DNA from: Natronosalvus halobius
GTDB taxonomy: Archaea; Halobacteriota; Halobacteria; Halobacteriales; Natrialbaceae
Assembly: GCF_024138145.1 (NCBI RefSeq)
Contig: NZ_CP099997.1
Span: 124,001 to 188,000 of the forward strand
DNA length: 64,000 nt
Reading direction: 5' to 3'
A model generated the notes under the pieces. The model worked only from the letters and a program-made list of their open reading frames with translations. It did not search any database and was not told the origin of the DNA. The position numbers and the translations under genes are program-made. The first letter of the stretch is position 1. Every line of letters begins with the position of its first letter. Positions 42,392 through 51,553 of this stretch are shown in pieces.

Positions 42392-43798
42392 ATGACTGGG
42401 CGATCGGTCGCCGCTCGCCGAACGGGTATCGTCGTGGGGCTGACCCTGCTCGCCGTCGCGGTCGCAACGGGCATCGTCTCCGCGAGCAACATCGCCTCCG
42501 GGTTGACCCAGAGCCGCGGCGACGTGAGCGTGCCGACGTGGCTCTACCTCGCGACCGGCGCGGGCGTCGTCGGCGTCTCGGCGTTGTTGACGATGCTGGT
42601 CACCGACCGGGAGTTCCTCGCACACGCCCACGATCAGCACGTGGGCCTCTCGAATCGGACGCTCGCTCGCGCCGCCTCGATCATCGGCGGGACGATCGGC
42701 GTCGGAGTCCTTCTCGGAATGGTCGTCGTAGGTCTCATCGGTCCGCAGGGGATCGGCCTGACCAGCGCCACGGTGCTCCTCTCGTTCGTCGTCGTTCGCG
42801 CCATCCTGACGACGGTCGCCTACACGGTCGGCGATCCGTGGCCCACCCTCAACCCCTGGCGACGGATCGCGAGCGTCTTCCCGACGCTCGACCGCGCGTA
42901 TCCGCCCGCGCTCGGTTCCTGGCCGGCCGTCGGCACCCTCCTGGTGTTCGTCTGGCTCGAGGTCGTCGCCCCCGTCATCTCGAGCCCGCGGCTGTTGACG
43001 GCGATCATCCTCGTCTACTCGGTGCTGACGGTGGCCGGCGCGGTCGCCTTCGGGTCGTCGACGTGGTTCGTGCGGGGCGATCCGCTGTCGGTCTGGTTTC
43101 GCCTCTACGGATCGGTCGCCCCGATCCAGCGTACCGACGACGGCCTCTCGCTTCGCTGGCCGGGCGCGAGATTGAGCGACGACGACGTGGTGACGGACCT
43201 CTCGGTGGTCGGGTTCGTGCTCGTGTTGGTCTGGGAACTCACGTTCAGCGGCTTCATCGTGACGCCACCAGGCGTCGCAGTGATCGAAGCGCTGGTCGGG
43301 ATCGGCCTGCCACCGCAACTGGTCTACCTCCTGTTGCTGGTCGGGGGCTACGCCCTCTGTTGGTGGGTCTACTGGGTCGCGGCTGGACTGACTCGCTCGA
43401 GAGCGGAGACGTACCTCTCCCGGCGGTACCTCGCGATCAGGTACGCGCCGCCGCTGCTGGCGATCGCCGCCGGCTACCACTTCGCTCACTACATCGGCTT
43501 CTCCATCTCGCTGTGGCCGGCCCTGCTCGAGGCGCTGAGCGCGCCGCTGAATCCGAGCGCGAACCCGACCCAGCTGGCGCTCACGTCCTGGTTCGGCTAC
43601 GTCGAGATCGCCGGCATTCTGGTCGGCCACGTACTCGCCGTGTGGATCGCTCACGCGGTTTCGATCGAGTTGTTCCCCGGAAAGCTCCAGGCGATCCGAA
43701 GCCAGTACCCGTTCATCGTCGTCATGATCGTTTTCACGATGATCAGTCTGTACCTGGTCTCGTTGCCGACGACGAGTGCGCCGTTCGTTCCCGCCTAG
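42392..43798 (+). CDS. Polytopic membrane protein, fenitrothion-hydrolase-like
   Basis: 468 residues from the ATG at 42392 (MTGRSVAARR). The frame is open upstream to 42194 but that part contains cysteines and basic residues and overlaps the direct repeats, so a shorter protein is preferred. About eleven hydrophobic helices. The FVRGDPLSVWFRLYGSVAPIQR loop and DPWPTLNPWRRI resemble haloarchaeal proteins annotated after the fenitrothion hydrolase FedB; that name reflects homology only. Three histidines near HFAHYIGF and one in LVGHVLAVWIAH could bind metal. Function unknown; sits in a cluster of respiratory-type membrane proteins. Confidence 0.7.
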   Translation: MTGRSVAARRTGIVVGLTLLAVAVATGIVSASNIASGLTQSRGDVSVPTWLYLATGAGVVGVSALLTMLVTDREFLAHAHDQHVGLSNRTLARAASIIGGTIGVGVLLGMVVVGLIGPQGIGLTSATVLLSFVVVRAILTTVAYTVGDPWPTLNPWRRIASVFPTLDRAYPPALGSWPAVGTLLVFVWLEVVAPVISSPRLLTAIILVYSVLTVAGAVAFGSSTWFVRGDPLSVWFRLYGSVAPIQRTDDGLSLRWPGARLSDDDVVTDLSVVGFVLVLVWELTFSGFIVTPPGVAVIEALVGIGLPPQLVYLLLLVGGYALCWWVYWVAAGLTRSRAETYLSRRYLAIRYAPPLLAIAAGYHFAHYIGFSISLWPALLEALSAPLNPSANPTQLALTSWFGYVEIAGILVGHVLAVWIAHAVSIELFPGKLQAIRSQYPFIVVMIVFTMISLYLVSLPTTSAPFVPA

Positions 43799-43840
43799 AG
43801 TGGGACTCGGAGATTCGGAGCTGTCGTTCGTCTCCGTTTC

Positions 43841-43990
43841 CGCCCTCGCCCCCGTCCTTCCTCCGTCCTCTCCGCCCTCGCCCTCGCCCTCGCCCCCGTC
43901 CTTCCTCCGTCCTCTCCGCCCTCGCCCTCGCCCCCGTCCTTCCTCCGTCCTCTCCGCCCTCGCTCTCGCCTTCCCTCCGGCCTCGCCTTC
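43841..43990. repeat. Pyrimidine-rich tandem repeat (about 38-44 bp units)
   Basis: Three imperfect copies containing CCCCCGTCCTTCCTCCGTCC begin at 43849, 43893 and 43931, with a shorter CTCTCGCCTTCCCTCC continuation to about 43990. The plus strand is almost free of A. Located between the stop at 43798 and the gene at 44068; no coding sense in any frame. Confidence 0.9.
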
Positions 43991-44067
43991 CCTCCGCTCT
44001 CGTTCGAACAGTCCGACCCTCGGGGAACCGGCAGACACTTTTTCGACCGCACCCTACGCGAGAGTAG

Positions 44068-44352
44068 ATGCACGCGGAGCCCGTCACCGAACCCGAGTAC
44101 GACGTGCCCGAGGAGGGACCGGCACTGACCTGTCCCTACTGCGCTCGCCCGCTCCAGACCGAGGAGCTCCTCACGTATCACGTGGGTCTGGCCCACGACG
44201 ACGTCTGCAGCGACGCTGAGCGCGAGACGTTCGAGGAGGCCCGCGAGGACGAGGAGTTCGACCTGTTCACCTTCCACGCGAAGGCGGCCGTCTCGGTGTT
44301 TCTGGTCTACTTCATGTTCGTGTTCCTCTACGGCCTCGTCTGGTCGGGCTGA
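44068..44352 (+). CDS. C2H2 zinc-finger protein with C-terminal membrane anchor
   Basis: 94 residues. A classical C2H2 pattern, Cys22-X2-Cys25-X12-His38-X4-His43 (CPYCARPLQTEELLTYHVGLAH), is followed by an acidic linker and one membrane helix (about 72-92, AVSVFLVYFMFVFLYGLVW). Conserved in haloarchaea next to the subunit-IV-type gene, as far as I recall. A single finger on a membrane anchor is more likely a protein-protein or metal-sensing module than a DNA binder. Confidence 0.75.
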   Translation: MHAEPVTEPEYDVPEEGPALTCPYCARPLQTEELLTYHVGLAHDDVCSDAERETFEEAREDEEFDLFTFHAKAAVSVFLVYFMFVFLYGLVWSG

Positions 44353-44468
44353 GGCCGGAATCGCTCGTCCTCGAGTTCGTCCCGTCGAGTCCAACCGCTC
44401 GAGCCCGCCCGTCGAAACCGGCACGCGCCGACCGGACCTATTTTGGGCTCAGCGTCGTGCAGCCGTCC

Positions 44469-45266
44469 ATGGCGGACCACCACGGATCGACCTTGTCCGA
44501 TCGGACAGTAGCCATTACCGGCGCCTCCGGACGGGTCGGCCGGGAGGCGACCGAGGCCCTGTCGGCGTACGACTGTCAACTCTTCAGCCACAGCGAACAC
44601 GAGGACATCGACAGCGAGACGCTCGAAATCGAAAATTTCGACGCCTTCTCGAACGCGCTCGAGGGTGCGGACGTGCTGATCCACCTCGCCGCGAACCCCT
44701 CACCCACGGCCGAGTGGGACGACCTGGAGGGGCCGAACATCGACGGTGTGTACAACGCGTTCGAGGCCGCCCTCGAGAACGACCTCGAGCGGGTGATCTT
44801 CGCGAGTTCGAACCACGCCGTCAACGGCGACAACGTCGTGAACCCGACGAGAGTCGAGACCACCGGAGGCGACCCGCGTGTCGTCCGCCCCGACGACCCG
44901 CCCAGCCCCGACAGCTACTACGGCGTGACGAAGGTCTTCGGGGAGGCGATGGGCGAGTACTACGCGAGGCGGCACGGCGTCGAAGTCGTGAACCTGCGAA
45001 TCGGCTGGCTCCTGGACGAGGACGAGTTGCGCGAAATCTGCGACGAACGCGACGGCTCTGGCGAGCGCTACGCCCGCGCGATGTGGCTCAGCTCTGCCGA
45101 CTGCCGACGCCTCCTCCAGGCGACGGCCTCGGCCTCGCTCTCGACCCACGCGATCACCGCTCACGGCGTCTCGAACAACGCCGACCGGTTCCTGTCGCTG
45201 ACCGAGACGATGCACGAACTCGAGTATCGGCCTCGCGACGACTCGAGCCTCGTCCTGGACGGGTAA
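44469..45266 (+). CDS. Extended SDR dehydrogenase, Azf/uronate-dehydrogenase-like
   Basis: 265 residues from the ATG at 44469. NAD-binding Rossmann motif ITGASGRVGREA near the N-terminus, substrate segment HLAANPSPTAEW, and the catalytic YYGVTK (Tyr-X3-Lys) with preceding ASSNHAV serine. Closest in style to uronate dehydrogenases and to the haloarchaeal NAD-dependent glucose-6-phosphate dehydrogenase Azf (described in Haloferax volcanii), which belongs to the same SDR branch. Azf would place it in the oxidative pentose phosphate pathway; substrate cannot be decided from sequence alone. Confidence 0.75.
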   Translation: MADHHGSTLSDRTVAITGASGRVGREATEALSAYDCQLFSHSEHEDIDSETLEIENFDAFSNALEGADVLIHLAANPSPTAEWDDLEGPNIDGVYNAFEAALENDLERVIFASSNHAVNGDNVVNPTRVETTGGDPRVVRPDDPPSPDSYYGVTKVFGEAMGEYYARRHGVEVVNLRIGWLLDEDELREICDERDGSGERYARAMWLSSADCRRLLQATASASLSTHAITAHGVSNNADRFLSLTETMHELEYRPRDDSSLVLDG

Positions 45267-45356
45267 TTCACGCTGGAGCGTCGAGACCGAGAACCGGTTG
45301 GACCGCTGGAGTGAGACGGACCGAACCGTTCGACGGTTCGATCGTCGCGGGCAACG

Positions 45357-45773
45357 TTACGCTCGCGTCTCGTACGACTCGAGTACCGTCAGCAGTTCCT
45401 GACCCAGGTCACTTGTGGCGTTCCGAATCCGATTCGTTTCGGGGTCGCGGACGACCAGCCCGCACGCTTCCAGTTTCGGGAGGTGGACGTGATGGAGCGC
45501 CGTTCGGACGCGTCGTCCGTGCTCACTGTCTGGTCGGCCCTCACTCCGGAGTGCTTCGGCAACCTGTTTCGCTAGCGCGTCCATCTCCATCGATTCTTCG
45601 TCGGCGAGATTCAACGTTCGCAGAATAACTCGACGTTGCTCGCTGGCAATCGCGAGGAGAACGTCGTCGGGAGGATTTGCTTCTCTGCCCTCGTGTGGAC
45701 TGGGTCTCGTCGCCTCTCCCCCGATACCCAACCGTTCCGCACTCGACTTGCTCGACTGGCGATCCATATCCAC
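45357..45773 (-). CDS. Winged-helix transcriptional regulator, DUF7344/ArsR-like
   Basis: 138 residues; ATG at 45773 or 45767. After a polar N-terminus, a winged helix spans about 35-125: DDVLLAIASEQRRVILRTL, then LAKQVAEAL and RTALHHVHLPKLEACGLVVRDPETNRI. The HHVHLPKLEACGLV recognition region is typical of the haloarchaeal family I recall as DUF7344. Ends 91 nt downstream of the SDR gene, convergently. Confidence 0.8.
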   Translation of the reverse strand: MDMDRQSSKSSAERLGIGGEATRPSPHEGREANPPDDVLLAIASEQRRVILRTLNLADEESMEMDALAKQVAEALRSEGRPDSEHGRRVRTALHHVHLPKLEACGLVVRDPETNRIRNATSDLGQELLTVLESYETRA

Positions 45774-45828
45774 TCATTACCGGGTGAGAAGTGTGAGGAT
45801 TCGCCATGATGCACGAGGGAATCCGATC

Positions 45829-46485
45829 TCACGTGTCTCCCTCGGAAGGGATGAGCGTGTACGTGACGAGCGCCCCGATCGCTCGGCGAAGTCGTTCCGT
45901 GACAGCCTGGTCGGAAATCTCGAATTCGTTGGCGAGTTCCTTGGTCGTACAGCCTCTCGGGATGTCGTAGTACCCCATCTCCACGGCCAGCGTGATCGCT
46001 TCCCGCTGGGGACCGGTCAGGCCGTGCCACGGACCGGCGTCCGGTTCCGTCGGGTTGTACACGCGAGCCACCTCCAGCGAGATCTGTGCGTCCTCACAGC
46101 GGGTCGTGAACTCGCTGAGGGCCGTGTGATCGGGAAATCGCAGTTCGAAGGCCCACGAATCGGGTGTCCCGGTGGCACTCAAAAGCTGCCCCTCGGTTTC
46201 TTTGATTCCCCGAAAGAGGTGGTCCTGGTTCGCGTCCCAATCGAGCGTGAAGAGCGTTCGGTCCTCGAAGACGTCGACCTCCGATGCGTCGTTGACGGTC
46301 GGATGGCGTTTGACCGCGTCGACGAACGAGCTTCGCGTCGAGTTGTGGATCCAGAAGAGGGGAACGGTGGCCTCACCGATTGGCACGAGATTCTCGAGTT
46401 GGATAGACGTGATCCCCTCGATGTGCAGAATTCGTCCGAGTTCGAATTCGGCGGACGGGATTCGGAATTCTGCGATTACGCTCAT
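45829..46485 (-). CDS. Bacterio-opsin-activator-type HTH regulator (left of divergent pair)
   Basis: 218 residues. N-terminal sensor-like half (beta-rich, FRIPSAEFELGRIL to RVYNP) and C-terminal HTH_10 domain: LTGPQREAITLAVEMGYYDIPRGCTTKELANEFEISDQAVTERLRRAI, the hallmark of Bat-like regulators. Transcribed divergently from a paralogue at 46774 that shares the same architecture (FxxPxxEFxLG... opening). Such pairs are usually local transcription regulators. Confidence 0.9.
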   Translation of the reverse strand: MSVIAEFRIPSAEFELGRILHIEGITSIQLENLVPIGEATVPLFWIHNSTRSSFVDAVKRHPTVNDASEVDVFEDRTLFTLDWDANQDHLFRGIKETEGQLLSATGTPDSWAFELRFPDHTALSEFTTRCEDAQISLEVARVYNPTEPDAGPWHGLTGPQREAITLAVEMGYYDIPRGCTTKELANEFEISDQAVTERLRRAIGALVTYTLIPSEGDT

Positions 46486-46510
46486 GACTCGCTCTCGTCA
46501 CCATGGTTGG

Positions 46511-46539
46511 CCATGCTAGTACAAAACTAGGTGGCATGG
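46511..46539. promoter_or_regulatory. Nested dyad in the divergent Bat-regulator promoter
   Basis: CCATG-CTAGT-ACAAA-ACTAG-GTG-GCATGG: an inner perfect 5-bp dyad CTAGT/ACTAG and outer arms CCATGC/GCATGG. Further ATGG/CCAT pairs occur on either side (46501-46550). It covers the probable promoter of the left-hand regulator gene, whose ATG is at 46485. Confidence 0.5.
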
Positions 46540-46620
46540 TACACCATGCTCTGCCGAGATTGGAATCGGGGGAAACCGTTTCCCCGCCTCGAAATGTTAC
46601 TGTCGAATTATCGTGGTATG

Positions 46621-46722
46621 CTCATACTGCCATTACCTTGGTCGTCGTGTCGTACTCATACTGCCATTACTCGAGTCGTCGCGTTGTTCTCGAACTGCCA
46701 TTGTCGGGCTGCTGCGTTGTAA
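46621..46722. repeat. Three 34-bp tandem repeats upstream of the right-hand Bat regulator
   Basis: The core CTCATACTGCCATTA occurs at 46621, 46655 and, with changes, 46689, exactly 34 bp apart; the spacer GTCGTCGTGT-like sequence is also shared. They end about 23 bp before the TTATTC promoter element at 46745, suggesting an array of binding sites. Confidence 0.8.
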
Positions 46723-46744
46723 CTTGATACACCACCCGTGCCGG

Positions 46745-46750
46745 TTATTC
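46745..46750 (+). promoter_or_regulatory. TATA-like box of the right-hand Bat regulator
   Basis: TTATTC centred 27 nt before the ATG at 46774, a leaderless spacing that supports that start over the in-frame upstream GTG at 46738. Confidence 0.45.
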
Positions 46751-46773
46751 GCCGCCCCGACGAATTGGGAGGT

Positions 46774-47415
46774 ATGGCTACCGTGTTAGAATTTACGAGT
46801 CCGGCAGAGGAGTTTCCGCTGGGAACTATTTTCGAAAACTTGCCGGGAGTCACGATCGAACTCGAGCGACTCATCCCGCACGAAATCCTGATTATCCCCT
46901 ATTTCTGGGTCCGGGGTGCGGAAGCCGATGATATCGAGGCCGCATTCGAAGCTCATGCTGGCGTGGTCAGTGTCGATCTCATCGACAGCGTCGATAGCGA
47001 GTTTCTCATGCGGGCGGAGTGGGAGGAGTCGTACTTCGGTATCCTGAGCGCGCTCGCCAAGACCAACGTCGCCGTCCTCTCCGGGATCGGGACGAGAGAC
47101 GGGTGGCGCTTCGAGGTTCGAGGCGAGAGTCGCGACACAATCAGCGAGTTCCGGACCAGTTGCCAGGAACACGACATCCCCATCGAAATCACCGCCGTAC
47201 ACGCGTTGCTCCCGGTACAGGGCGACGGCTACGAGTTGACCGACACCCAGCGAGAGGCGCTGGTGCTGGCGTACGAGCATGGGTACTTCAACTCACCGCG
47301 TGAGACGTCGCTCCAGGACGTTGCTGACGAACTCGGTATCACCCAGCAGTCGCTTTCGTCTCGACTCAGGCGCGGCCATCGCCGACTCATCGCCGGAACG
47401 CTCGCTAATCCGTAG
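46774..47415 (+). CDS. Bacterio-opsin-activator-type HTH regulator (right of divergent pair)
   Basis: 213 residues. Opens VLEFTSPAEEFPLGTIF, the same pattern as the divergent paralogue, and ends with the HTH_10 domain: LTDTQREALVLAYEHGYFNSPRETSLQDVADELGITQQSLSSRLRRGHRRLIAGTL. The sensor half differs strongly between the two, so they probably respond to different signals. The promoter carries the 34-bp repeats. Confidence 0.9.
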   Translation: MATVLEFTSPAEEFPLGTIFENLPGVTIELERLIPHEILIIPYFWVRGAEADDIEAAFEAHAGVVSVDLIDSVDSEFLMRAEWEESYFGILSALAKTNVAVLSGIGTRDGWRFEVRGESRDTISEFRTSCQEHDIPIEITAVHALLPVQGDGYELTDTQREALVLAYEHGYFNSPRETSLQDVADELGITQQSLSSRLRRGHRRLIAGTLANP

Positions 47416-47507
47416 ACCCGGTCGGAATGATCGGTAGACCGGTATTAGTACCTTCTGTATAATCAGTGGCGCTCTTCACCCGACTCAGGCCGCTAGGAAG
47501 ACGTAGT

Positions 47508-47861
47508 ATGATTGCTACACAGGCCGGTGTCGAGTTGGCGTCGATGGCGTTTTATCCGAAGTCGGAAACGTACAGGGCCGAGTACGACCAGGAGACAGTC
47601 TCTGCGAGCATGGCCGTCGTGGCGGTACTCTCGGAGGTGATGGATGTCGATCCAGTCGAACTGAAACCGCTTCACGCATCCGTTAACACCGGTGCGCTCG
47701 ATGATCTCGCCCGCGTTCGAGACAGGACGGGTGAGGAGGTTTCGATCACGTTTCAGGTAGCGACGTACGCGATAACCGTCTCCAACGACGGCACGGTCGC
47801 GCTCACTTTGCGAGAGCGGACGGGAACGGACGGCGTGACCGAGGGAGTGTCCCCCGTATGA
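47508..47861 (+). CDS. HalOD1 output-domain protein
   Basis: 117 residues from the ATG at 47508 (alternatives: 47544 and an upstream GTG at 47466). The HalOD1 domain covers most of the protein: SASMAVVAVLSEVMDVDPVELKPLHASVNTGALDDLA and ITFQVATYAITVSNDGTVAL. HalOD1 is a haloarchaeal domain predicted to act as a signalling output, also found fused to receiver domains; its molecular role is unknown. Overlaps the following small gene by 4 nt (ATGA). Confidence 0.8.
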   Translation: MIATQAGVELASMAFYPKSETYRAEYDQETVSASMAVVAVLSEVMDVDPVELKPLHASVNTGALDDLARVRDRTGEEVSITFQVATYAITVSNDGTVALTLRERTGTDGVTEGVSPV

Positions 47862-48043
47862 CCTCCGACGAGGCGTCGCTCGCGACTCGAGCGAAACTCA
47901 ATGCCGAATTGCAGTCGCTCCTTCGTCGGGCGCACGGTAACGGTGTCGATGTAGAAGGCGGGTGGGAGTGTCGGAACGGTCCCGAGCACCCAGATTGGGA
48001 CGTGATCGTCACCGAAGTGCGAAAGAACGACGAGTCGGAGTGA
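47858..48043 (+). CDS. 61-residue haloarchaeal protein coupled to HalOD1
   Basis: Begins inside the HalOD1 stop codon (ATGA). A helical N-terminus (ATRAKLNAELQSLLRRAHGNGVDV) is followed by GGWECRNGPEHPDWDVIVTEV, which contains one Cys, one His and conserved-looking Trp residues. No known domain recognised. Composition is acidic and the reading frame matches haloarchaeal codon use, so the gene is probably real. The tight overlap suggests a role with the HalOD1 protein. Confidence 0.65.
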   Translation: MTSDEASLATRAKLNAELQSLLRRAHGNGVDVEGGWECRNGPEHPDWDVIVTEVRKNDESE

Positions 48044-48151
48044 ACGAGTGCGTCGGCGAACGTGATACTGGCTGGTCCTGTTGGTGTTTTCGTTAAACGA
48101 TGGTCGGTCCAGGTAGCAACGAAGACAGGACAGCCACCGACCTCGACTCGA

Positions 48152-48586
48152 TTACGTTTTGCTCCGAGTTCGATGGACGAATTCCTCGAGTTCGTCTTCG
48201 ATGAGCGTCGAAACACGCTCGCTGTATCGCCAGAGTGCTGTGTTGAGTCGCTCTTCAGTCTCGTCGTCGATATCGTCTCCATCTCGAAGGACGGAGTCTT
48301 CGGTAATCTGTGGGTGATAGACACAGACGACCCCGAGCGGGACGTCAGCCCCCATCTCACCGGCGGTGTGAATACCGTACTGATCGGTTCCCCAGACACC
48401 GTCCCCACCCTGTCGCTCGAGTGCCGAGTCGAGCGCATCGAGAAGCTGTAGGTCCTCGGCCGTGAGAATAGGGTCGTCACCTTCGAACAGTTCGCTGTAC
48501 GCCTCCGTTCGGGCACGGTTCGTCCACTGTTCCAGGTGAGACCGTGCGCGTACGATCAGTTGACGTTCGTCCGGACGCTCGATCAT
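48152..48586 (-). CDS. Haloarchaeal conserved hypothetical protein
   Basis: 144 residues, mostly helical: RQLIVRARSHLEQWTNRARTEAYSELFEGDDPILTAEDLQLLDALDSAL, then a glycine-rich turn and YHPQITEDSVL, ending EEFVHRTRSKT. No catalytic motif visible. It resembles a short haloarchaeal family I recall as DUF7539 (not checked). Converges with the small gene at 48043 and diverges from 48730. Confidence 0.6.
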   Translation of the reverse strand: MIERPDERQLIVRARSHLEQWTNRARTEAYSELFEGDDPILTAEDLQLLDALDSALERQGGDGVWGTDQYGIHTAGEMGADVPLGVVCVYHPQITEDSVLRDGDDIDDETEERLNTALWRYSERVSTLIEDELEEFVHRTRSKT

Positions 48587-48729
48587 GGCCTAGTCACGAC
48601 TGCCAGGTCAATCAACGTTTGCGTCGACGGCCTGTGAGCCCGCTGGCGACGGCGCTCATCACCTCTTCCCGGTGCGTCCATTCACGTGCCGTCCACAGCG
48701 TTATCCCGTTCAGGACTGTATGTCACCGT

Positions 48730-49128
48730 ATGGCAGACACGAAACGAAGTCGAGAAAAGCAGGCTCGCAACGAGGAGAACCGACAGCGAGAACGGGAAGT
48801 CTCGGAGGCGCGCGACCGTGGCGACGAGGCCGAACCGCCGGACGACGAGTGGGATGAAACCGACGAAGAAGGCCAGGCGGGTGACGATCACGACTCGCCT
48901 CGAGAGTGCCACCGTCGCGACTGTACCGAATCGGCGACGTTCGTCGTCGTCGAACGCTACCAGGAAGAGACCGGTCAGGGTGCTGTCGAGGCGAAGGCGT
49001 TCCTGTGTCGCGCCCACACCGACGAGGAGAGTCCTGCGAATCTCGACGGTGCCTACGACGACTACCTGTTTCGCGTCGAGATGCTTCCGGGGGCGAGAAC
49101 AGAGACAGATACCGCGGAGACGGCGTAA
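48730..49128 (+). CDS. Small haloarchaeal protein with CX4C...CX2H putative zinc site
   Basis: 132 residues from the ATG at 48730; the frame is open upstream but reads basic sequence. The first 55 residues are a charged low-complexity helix (Lys/Arg/Glu then Asp/Glu). The rest contains Cys60-X4-Cys65 (CHRRDCTESATFVVVERY) and Cys93-X2-His96 (FLCRAHTDEESP), a plausible treble-clef-like metal site. LDGAYDDYLFRVEMLPG closes it. Unknown function. Confidence 0.65.
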   Translation: MADTKRSREKQARNEENRQREREVSEARDRGDEAEPPDDEWDETDEEGQAGDDHDSPRECHRRDCTESATFVVVERYQEETGQGAVEAKAFLCRAHTDEESPANLDGAYDDYLFRVEMLPGARTETDTAETA

Positions 49129-49240
49129 TCGGCGCCTCGATTTATATTTCGCCATCGAACGCCCGAGGCCGCTTTCCGGCTGCTCGAAGTCGCCCCCGGC
49201 CGCTCGAGTCCGTCCCTCGGTTACTCAGAGATGTCCCCGA

Positions 49241-49312
49241 CCGCCCGGCGCCGTTTCCGACTGCCCGGCGCCGTTTTCCGACCGCTCGGCGCCGTTTTCC
49301 GACCGCTCGGCG
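49241..49312. repeat. 21-bp tandem repeats between convergent gene ends
   Basis: Three and a half copies of a 20-21 bp unit (CCGCTCGGCGCCGTTTTCCGA and variants). Each contains the palindrome CGGCGCCG followed by TTT, so each transcript copy could form a hairpin plus U-run; it may act as a bidirectional terminator for the genes ending at 49128 and 49325. Confidence 0.85.
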
Positions 49313-49324
49313 CGTCCGATGGGC

Positions 49325-50371
49325 CTACCGATACGATAACTCGAGTTCGAGCGCCCGCTCGAGCACTCCCTCGTCGTACAACTCGTCCGTCTGTTCGGGA
49401 CGGGTACGGTGGATCGCCCGAACCGTCTCGACGGTGTTCCGGAAGTTCTTGAACGTCGCCTCGTCGACCATCTGGCCGTCGATCGTTACCGCGCCCGTTC
49501 CCTCGACTTTCGCGGCGTTGAACCGCTCGATCTTGTCCACGTCGCGCTCGAGTTCCGCCGGCGTGGGCGTGTGGATCCGGTTGGCCTGGATCGTCTGTTT
49601 GGGGTACAGCGACCACGAGCCATCGAGGCCGATCCGCGCCTCGCGCTCGACCTGGTCGGCGTAGCCGTTGGCGTTGTAGACGGTCACGCCCGCACGTTCT
49701 TCGAAGAGGTCGTCGAACGGGCCGCCAATGGCGAGCAACTCCTCGGCGCTCGCCTCGTTGGAGAGCGCCTCGAGCAGGCCGTCCCAGCGCGGACGGCCGT
49801 CGCCGAGGTCGCGCCCGCCGAGTTCGGCGGTGTAGTCGACGGGGCCGAAGACGAGGGCAGTGAGCCGCTCGCCACCGGCGTCGGCCCGTAGTCGGGCGAT
49901 CTCGCGCAGGTCCGACCGGGCGCGTGCCGTCTCGACGATGATCGAGAGGCCGATCGATCCCTCGGGGTGGCCGTGGTCGGCTTCCACACCGGCCACCGCC
50001 TCGAGGACGCGCTCGACGTCCTCGCGGCGGCCGACTTTGGGGACCACGACGCCATCGATCTCGTCGCCCACGTCCTGGACGAGCGTGTCGATCTCCTCGC
50101 GACCCCGGGCGCGAACGGTCTCGTCGTCGTAGCTCCACTGGACGCGCGGCCAGATCTCCCCGGGGAACTCGAGTGCTGGGAGTAACTCACAGACGTTCTC
50201 GAGCCCCTCGGCTTTCATGTCCGGGGCAGTGCCGTCCTCGAGGTCGGGGACGAGCCAGTCGGGAGCCTGGAAGCCCTCGGCGGTGAGGCCGGATCTGAGG
50301 TACTTCGCCGTGTCGTCTTTCGGGACGGCGGCCGGTGCGGTCTGGAAGGTGCGGCAGGTTCGGTTGATCAT
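49325..50371 (-). CDS. citE: CitE-family L-malyl-CoA/beta-methylmalyl-CoA lyase
   Basis: 348 residues, HpcH/HpaI-CitE fold. Landmarks: RTCRTFQTAPAAVPKDDTAKYLRSG (haloarchaeal opening), WLVPDLEDGTAPDMK, VVVPKVGRREDVERV, IGLSIIVETARARSDLREIARL (acidic Mg ligand and Arg substrate contacts) and LVFGPVDYTAELGG. In the methylaspartate cycle this enzyme cleaves beta-methylmalyl-CoA to propionyl-CoA and glyoxylate, and glyoxylate later condenses with acetyl-CoA. Last gene of the minus-strand operon, 33 nt after the hydratase. Confidence 0.9.
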   Translation of the reverse strand: MINRTCRTFQTAPAAVPKDDTAKYLRSGLTAEGFQAPDWLVPDLEDGTAPDMKAEGLENVCELLPALEFPGEIWPRVQWSYDDETVRARGREEIDTLVQDVGDEIDGVVVPKVGRREDVERVLEAVAGVEADHGHPEGSIGLSIIVETARARSDLREIARLRADAGGERLTALVFGPVDYTAELGGRDLGDGRPRWDGLLEALSNEASAEELLAIGGPFDDLFEERAGVTVYNANGYADQVEREARIGLDGSWSLYPKQTIQANRIHTPTPAELERDVDKIERFNAAKVEGTGAVTIDGQMVDEATFKNFRNTVETVRAIHRTRPEQTDELYDEGVLERALELELSYR

Positions 50372-50404
50372 TGGGAGTGTGGTCGTTGTATCGTTGGTCT
50401 CGCT

Positions 50405-51553
50405 TCAGTCGTCTCGAGTCAGTATCTCGGCGGTTCGAATCCCGGAATACACCGGCTCGTCGCTCTGGTTGAACGCGACGTGCTGGAAGCGGACGGTCCC
50501 CGCCCGCTCGTTCGCGGTCGTCGTCTCGCGGCTCGTCTCCAGGACGCGCGTGAAGCAGTAGACGGTGTCGCCGGGGGTGACGAATGCGTGGAACCGCTCG
50601 TCCTCGAAGCCAACTTCGCGGTGGGTTCGCTCGTCCGACCGAGCGTGGCCTAGCGCCGTCGAGCGCGTCACGTCGCCGTAGGCGACGATCCCTCCCGACG
50701 GCGCGTCGGCCATTGCGTTGGCATTGTGGTGCTGTTTTGCGGTATTGAGGGTCGACAGCGGCAGGGTCGCGACGGTCACGTCGTCCATGGTGCGCCCGCG
50801 TTCGTGCCGGTAGGCAACGACGGTGTCCCGGTCTTCGGCCGTCTCGAGGGCGGCCTCGAAGTCCTCGAACGCGGTGCCCTCAGGGGTCACGAACGTCTCG
50901 GGGAGCGCGCTCACGGAGTGGTTGGCATCCGGCGAACGTCCGTCGCCGTCGGTATCGACGCCGCCCCCGTCCGTCTCGAGTCGTTCACGCCGCGGAATCA
51001 TGTTCGTTCGCTCGTAGGTGCAGCACGTGTTGCCCGTCCTGGCGTCGTATCCACGGGTCGCCCAGGTGACGATGCCGTAGTCTGGTCTCGAGTTCGACCC
51101 CTTCGTAGTCAGGACTTCGCTCTCGACACGCAGGTCGGTTCCCGGAGCGACAACGTCGGCCGGAAAGCGGACGTTCGTCCGGCCAAGGAAGTAGCCGCCT
51201 TTCTCGCTCAGGTCCTCGACGGTGCACCCGAGGGTGGCCGCCAGCAAGTAGTCCGGGTGGATCGGCGGTTCGTCGAAGCCGCGGTCGCGGGCGACGTCCG
51301 CGCGCCAGTACGCAGGGTCGTGGTTCAGCGTCTGGCTCGTCCACAGTTCGTTTCCCCAGCGAGTCAGCCGGAGTCCGGGTTCGTGTTCGATCACGTCTCC
51401 CTCCGCGAAGTCCTCGAAGGAATGCCCTTTCTCACGGGTGTCCGCTCGCTCGAGCGCGCTGGCGAACGTGTCGGGGTCGGTCCACTCGAGGTCCTCCCTT
51501 GCACTCGAGTCGTTCTCATGGTCTCGCGAACCGTCCGCGTCGGTGTCAGTCAT
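50405..51553 (-). CDS. mch: Mesaconyl-CoA hydratase
   Basis: 382 residues, a double hot-dog (MaoC-like) dehydratase. N-terminal hot dog: HSFEDFAEGDVIEHEPGLRLT, NHDPAYW, PPIHPDYLLAATLG; C-terminal hot dog: STLNTAKQHHNANAMADAPSGGIVAYGDVTRSTALGHAR. Hydrates mesaconyl-CoA to beta-methylmalyl-CoA. Acidic N-terminal extension of about 35 residues. Overlaps the methylaspartate ammonia-lyase gene by 8 nt. Confidence 0.92.
   Translation of the reverse strand: MTDTDADGSRDHENDSSAREDLEWTDPDTFASALERADTREKGHSFEDFAEGDVIEHEPGLRLTRWGNELWTSQTLNHDPAYWRADVARDRGFDEPPIHPDYLLAATLGCTVEDLSEKGGYFLGRTNVRFPADVVAPGTDLRVESEVLTTKGSNSRPDYGIVTWATRGYDARTGNTCCTYERTNMIPRRERLETDGGGVDTDGDGRSPDANHSVSALPETFVTPEGTAFEDFEAALETAEDRDTVVAYRHERGRTMDDVTVATLPLSTLNTAKQHHNANAMADAPSGGIVAYGDVTRSTALGHARSDERTHREVGFEDERFHAFVTPGDTVYCFTRVLETSRETTTANERAGTVRFQHVAFNQSDEPVYSGIRTAEILTRDD

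Follow-up and report, generated by a model that had tools for sequence, protein, structure and literature searches.

The gap between two divergently transcribed regulator genes of Natronosalvus halobius contains three tandem 34-bp repeats that are most probably, at a likelihood of around 0.6, a clade-specific expansion within the spacer, with control of the locus vested in a different element, the near-palindrome TGRYRYACCA, through which the regulators would govern their own expression. Coordinates given without a locus handle refer to the window, the complete 64,000-nucleotide stretch of DNA that was analysed. In the mechanism envisaged, a 34-bp segment would have been tandemly expanded in a single clade, within the stretch that separates two back-to-back operator-promoters; the working control element would be the near-palindrome, which immediately precedes the TATA-like box at both regulator genes and recurs in a degenerate version close to a neighbouring DUF7344 gene; and it would be recognised by one or both of the HTH_10/BAT proteins encoded on either side, which would thereby control their own locus. 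Judged by its placement and by published precedents available in part, the operator would be positioned so that contact with the basal factors is open to an activator and a repressor alike. The array would mainly lengthen the spacer and itself contribute only modestly, if at all, to regulation, its evolution being, we infer, near-neutral. The operator-like element and the gene cluster that surrounds it constitute a more useful finding than the modest, clade-specific array.

The gap occupies positions 46486–46773 (288 bp), and is flanked on the minus strand by the left regulator gene (45829–46485, 218 aa) and on the plus strand by its right counterpart (46774–47415, 213 aa). Pfam searches detected in each protein a C-terminal HTH_10 domain (PF04967; E = 1.7e-17 left, 8.8e-18 right) and a BAT domain (GAF and HTH_10 associated, PF15915; E = 2.8e-10 left, 1.2e-12 right), all above the relevant cut-offs, thereby confirming the description in the earlier note of a divergent pair of Bat-type regulators. 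The PAS and GAF sensory domains of Bat proper were found in neither protein by Pfam at E ≤ 0.001, and the two regulators are ~33% identical to each other. Beyond them lie three conserved neighbours: a DUF7344 gene on the minus strand (45357–45773, 138 aa) and a HalOD1 gene on the plus strand (47508–47861, 117 aa), both recognised by Pfam and locus comparison, and a plus-strand 61-aa open reading frame (47858–48043) recognised by locus comparison. A search of 43 loci, comprising 36 of 40 named loci and seven genus loci, some of them short or containing only remoter paralogs, recovered relatives of the HalOD1 protein in 31 and of the 61-aa reading frame in 30 (E ≤ 1e-4), together with relatives of the DUF7344 protein in 22 (E ≤ 1e-15); the gene cluster around the regulator pair is conserved. 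One locus (L054 of genome G111) contained tandem right-type genes with one operator-like site for each, and similar clusters were encountered across several families, as well as on plasmid-titled records (L113, L121), a distribution which suggests horizontal transfer.

Tandem Repeats Finder (TRF) reported an array at 46621–46702 with a period of 34, 2.4 copies and a score of 106, and a repeat search resolved three in-register copies with successive spacings of 34 and 34 bp, copies 2 and 3 exhibiting 76% and 62% identity to copy 1. Units 1 (46621–46654) and 2 (46655–46688), both on the plus strand and detected by both procedures, share the core CTCATACTGCCATTA, with exact copies starting at 46621 and 46655; the diverged unit 3 (46689–46722, plus strand), detected by the repeat search, carries at 46689 the core CTCGAACTGCCATTG with three mismatches. 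Self-matching of the gap peaked at a lag of 34 with 39/48 positions, a value reached by none of 500 dinucleotide shuffles (shuffle maximum 28). The three 34-bp repeats previously described in this gap are thus real, and the translated frames that run through them, read by eye rather than against a database, contained no recognised protein, in keeping with their prior designation as non-coding. The repeats were also described as standing just before the TATA box of the right-hand gene; a separate, conserved operator-like element (46723–46737) intervenes between the array and the TATA-like box. The suggestion that spacing by about three helical turns would present the units on one face of the DNA did not hold: at 10.5 bp per turn the unit-to-unit spacing of 34 bp corresponds to 3.24 turns, so that neighbouring units are rotated by ~86 degrees, and in the decayed array of a second carrier species (G114) units 1 and 2 are spaced by 31 bp.

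When the gap was used as a DNA query against 125 family genomes, matches were obtained in 22, three of them spanning nearly its full length, and protein searches of eight genus genomes yielded some relative at E ≤ 1e-20 in all eight. With the further input of the 40 named loci, taken from genome contigs, and after identical sequences had been collapsed to one and loci failing the criteria dropped, 44 distinct gaps were retained, each of them divergent, shorter than 1500 bp, with both genes in the flank, and bordered by a right protein of at least 45% and a left protein of at least 40% identity. The array was present in only three of these 44 orthologous gaps, namely those of the window genome, G112 and G114; TRF called it in the first two, and in G114 it was visible though decayed. 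Three units were recognisable in each of the three carrier species, and the remaining 41 gaps showed no such array. The right-hand proteins of the carriers formed one group with support values of 100/99 in a tree of 43, and G117, a member of the same genus, possesses the gene pair but not the array.

The carrier gaps measured 288, 286 and 282 bp, compared with 189–198 bp in 33 of the other 41, and two further gaps (L029, 273 bp; L109, 274 bp) were array-free yet comparably long. Overall lengths ranged from 148 to 390 bp, besides one gap of 982 bp (L054_1501) that spans a second right-type gene. Two of the longer gaps contained extra material of other kinds. That of G109 (L029 1293–1565, 273 bp) carries ~83 extra bases between two copies of TGATAC, and these resemble a small insertion with target duplication; that of G059 (L035 1160–1549) is longer by ~200 bases, which end in inverted-repeat-like sequence, include two copies of 90 bp flanking an N, and split the right operator; this insert is perhaps a small mobile element, perhaps in part an assembly duplicate.

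The candidate operators were located by their sequence and position, their function being putative in each case. The left operator-like near-palindrome, GCATGGTACACCATGC (46534–46549), is symmetric except for its two central bases and lies upstream of TTTTGTAC (46519–46526, minus strand), the TATA-like box of the left gene. Its plus-strand counterpart, CTTGATACACCACCC (46723–46737), adjoins the end of the array and is followed by the TATA-like box GGTTATTC (46743–46750, plus strand), 31 bp before the right start codon. In either orientation, TGRYRYACCA starts 46–54 bases from the left start codon in 43 of the 44 gaps, a figure that does not amount to 43 independent observations since the orthologs are related, and it ends 36–41 bases ahead of the right start codon in 38; over 200 rounds, mononucleotide-shuffled gaps gave means of 0.005 (left) and 0 (right) of 44. 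Both sites occur together in 37/44 gaps, and this sharing of the same near-palindrome by the two promoters, with its placement conserved, bears out the expectation that the gap would show signs of self-regulation. Given that gap lengths vary and operator-to-start distances are nearly fixed, the array is best regarded as an expansion within a variable spacer. A dyad, GGGGAAACCGTTTCCCC, was also observed at 46569–46585, in the interval that separates the array from the left operator; G114 retains it almost intact, and its form in G112 is imperfect.

The exact right site was missing from six gaps, including L035, where the insert divides it, and those of G112 and G114, where it reads TGATACATCA; two of the three array carriers accordingly possess a right operator with a mismatch, for which the array could in principle compensate. 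In the window genome the 12-base form CWTGRYRYACCA gave four exact matches against 13 for the reversed control, and of these two are the left site, matched once on each strand, a third is the right site, and the fourth lies within an open reading frame identified, from reading its sequence, as that of an ABC-transporter ATPase. Among the matches listed for the 125 family genomes, in a table read by eye, the 12-base pattern for the most part did not outnumber its reversed control, and its weight consequently derives from placement and not from number. The interval from the left gene to the DUF7344 gene contained a site with at most one mismatch in 19/22 loci, as against 0/30 for that from the right gene to HalOD1, the chance of such a site in a 200-bp gap being ~2% as a rough, uncomputed estimate. 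Its representative in the window, CATGATGCACGA (45805–45816, one mismatch), differs in strand and placement from most other loci, and for that reason is the weakest of the three candidate sites. Taken together, the operator sites and the DUF7344-side site suggest, from their sequence and arrangement, a compact and self-regulating locus.

The promoter element shared by the two genes and by their orthologs across many haloarchaeal genera (43 and 38 of 44 gaps) differs from the repeats, contrary to the view that the latter are the regulators' own sites: comparisons of the repeat units with the operators revealed no likeness (p > 0.4 in 12/12). Nor did the 15-bp core define a regulon of regulator sites recurring at other targets. 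In the window genome it was not enriched, giving 20 matches at ≤3 mismatches, three of which are the array itself, against 70 for the reversed control; across the 125 family genomes a 16-base form occurred in 54 places at ≤2 mismatches, five of them in the three arrays, and the proposed regulon was rejected. This lack of enrichment may be compatible with regulation at a single site. The unit is equally not a widespread minisatellite of the genome, the entire gap and a 20-base piece of the array each giving one match.

Constraint on the array was assessed from invariant alignment columns among the three carriers, which numbered 99/113 in the operator-promoter segments (46486–46570 and 46723–46750), 35/45 in the cores, 36/57 in the linkers and 32/51 in the spacer. 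The operator-promoter segments were more conserved than spacer plus linkers (p = 1.6e-5); the corresponding values for the cores were p = 0.083 against linkers, p = 0.084 against spacer and p = 0.054 against both combined. Differences in the cores for the three species pairs amounted to 0.11, 0.13 and 0.20, compared with 0.22, 0.24 and 0.18 at fourfold sites of the right gene and 0.14, 0.15 and 0.13 at those of the left gene; because these two sets of fourfold sites differ, whether the cores evolve more slowly than neutral sequence depends on the yardstick chosen.

Other tandem arrays provided a second yardstick. TRF was applied with a score of 60 to positions 42500–50500 of the window and to the matching stretches of G112 and G114. 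A C-rich repeat at 43841–44002, also delimited as 43841–43970 (units of 38–44 bp, score 211), both strands of which contain long frames that overlap, was not reported at the score of 60 in either matching stretch; a 21-bp repeat at 49237–49313 (3.7 copies, score 126) was present as 2.2 copies in G112 and was not reported in the matching G114 stretch. A 24-bp array of 2.9 copies lies elsewhere in the window genome, between another BAT/HTH_10 gene and the gene preceding it (L208 796–866; about G000:C1:2872195–2872265), and went unreported for the corresponding genes of G112 and G114, at which a 12-bp repeat was present. An upstream scan of genus regulator loci, of which 57/58 were usable and gave 47 distinct stretches (TRF score 40, period at least 12, strand assigned by tblastn), detected, beyond the 34-bp array, which was listed from both genes in the window genome and likewise in G112, repeats of 13 bp (2.2 copies), 12 bp (3.2 copies) and 24 bp (2.9 copies), the last two both preceding one gene of the window genome. 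The 34-bp array thus resembles the intergenic minisatellites of its own genome in consisting of two to four copies of units of tens of bases located in gaps, but differs in keeping its three units where those arrays vary among the three species. That arrays in gaps, promoter-side ones included, are ordinary in these genomes favours a tolerated expansion; that the 34-bp array alone among those compared persists in three species favours some constraint, or simply a greater age.

Of the competing interpretations, the most credible, albeit appreciably less probable than expansion of a tolerated spacer, is that the three cores are accessory sites gained in this clade, for one of the regulators or for another factor, and that they tune the right promoter from a position immediately before it. 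The persistence of three units in three species, when two neighbouring arrays were lost or shortened, is in its favour, as are the imperfect right operator in two carriers, the higher conservation of cores than of linkers (35/45 as against 36/57) and the core rates falling below those of right-gene fourfold sites in two of three species pairs. However, the difference in conservation was non-significant and left-gene fourfold sites differ about as little as the cores; the cores are unlike the operator; the 15-mer is not enriched and its 16-base form lies mostly outside these arrays (five of 54 places); and the spacing is off one face of the helix and is broken in G114. Retention of the array in three species, with cores slightly more conserved (p = 0.08), may nevertheless indicate a modest accessory role. 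A more elaborate and decidedly unlikely version would make the array a second, clade-specific layer of control, its cores being occupied by a separate factor, or else by one of the two regulators, so as to tune an otherwise ancient two-regulator switch, perhaps offsetting the weakened right operator; if true, this would be an enhancer-like addition of recent date next to an archaeal operator that is itself conserved.

Derivation of the repeats as decayed duplicates of the right operator region is very improbable. The right operator at 46723 does lie exactly one further 34-bp step downstream, and the stretch corresponding to unit 3 (46679–46712) aligned upstream of the operator in 21/41 outgroup gaps at p ≤ 0.05, but those of units 1 and 2 did so in 0/41, seven relatives picked as close gave no such alignment, a control segment of spacer aligned in 15/41, and the direct comparisons with the operator gave p > 0.4 in all 12 tests. 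Copying of the units from the operator or its flank was on this evidence unsupported, and no convincing source of the units was found in the 41 outgroup gaps. There is least to commend reading the segment as the source of a small RNA or peptide, or as a mobile or structured element, the odds of which are slight in the extreme: stretches of tens of codons free of stops are present in some of the frames that cross the array, against which no Rfam match was obtained up to E = 1, the predicted fold was no better than those of shuffled sequences (z +2.0, 198/200 shuffles at least as good), no inverted repeat of at least 12 bases was present in 46400–46850, and the gap and the 20-base piece each had a single match in the window genome. 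The Rfam, folding and inverted-repeat results led to the rejection of RNA, hairpin and mobile element alike.

To our knowledge, few Bat-like regulators have known binding sites. A short near-palindrome that keeps a fixed place and, in the window genome, is almost confined to its own locus represents a directly testable site for a regulator pair that occurs in many haloarchaeal genera. The array matters little unless it proves to change expression.

Among the titles and abstract openings covered, drawn mostly from outside the subscription literature, none was found that names this array or operator. According to the available parts of the relevant sources, the denitrification promoters of H. 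mediterranei contain a semi-palindrome, CGAAYATDKTYG, which is unlike TGRYRYACCA, and their regulator is not named there as NarO (PMC10062603). CsmR of Haloferax volcanii is associated with the motif TATCA(N4)TGATA in 50/65 peaks, a motif compared there with those of Lrp/AsnC (PMC13286277, in part); as at the present locus, its site is a semi-palindrome adjoining the TATA box, but, unlike the near-palindrome described here, it serves many targets. NarO and DmsR, as presented in the accessible text of PMC11218638, are Bat-like regulators that lack PAS and GAF domains, as do the two proteins of this locus, and unlike them are tied to anaerobic respiration. A further parallel, drawn on overall design and not on site sequence, is offered by Bat and its UAS in the bop cluster of Halobacterium, for which the available section of PMC1447603 places the UAS near bop, brp and crtB1: both systems combine a regulator bearing a C-terminal HTH with an upstream site. 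Bat, however, has PAS and GAF domains, and its targets are other genes, whereas here two short BAT plus HTH_10 proteins accompany a site that is nearly confined to the locus encoding them.
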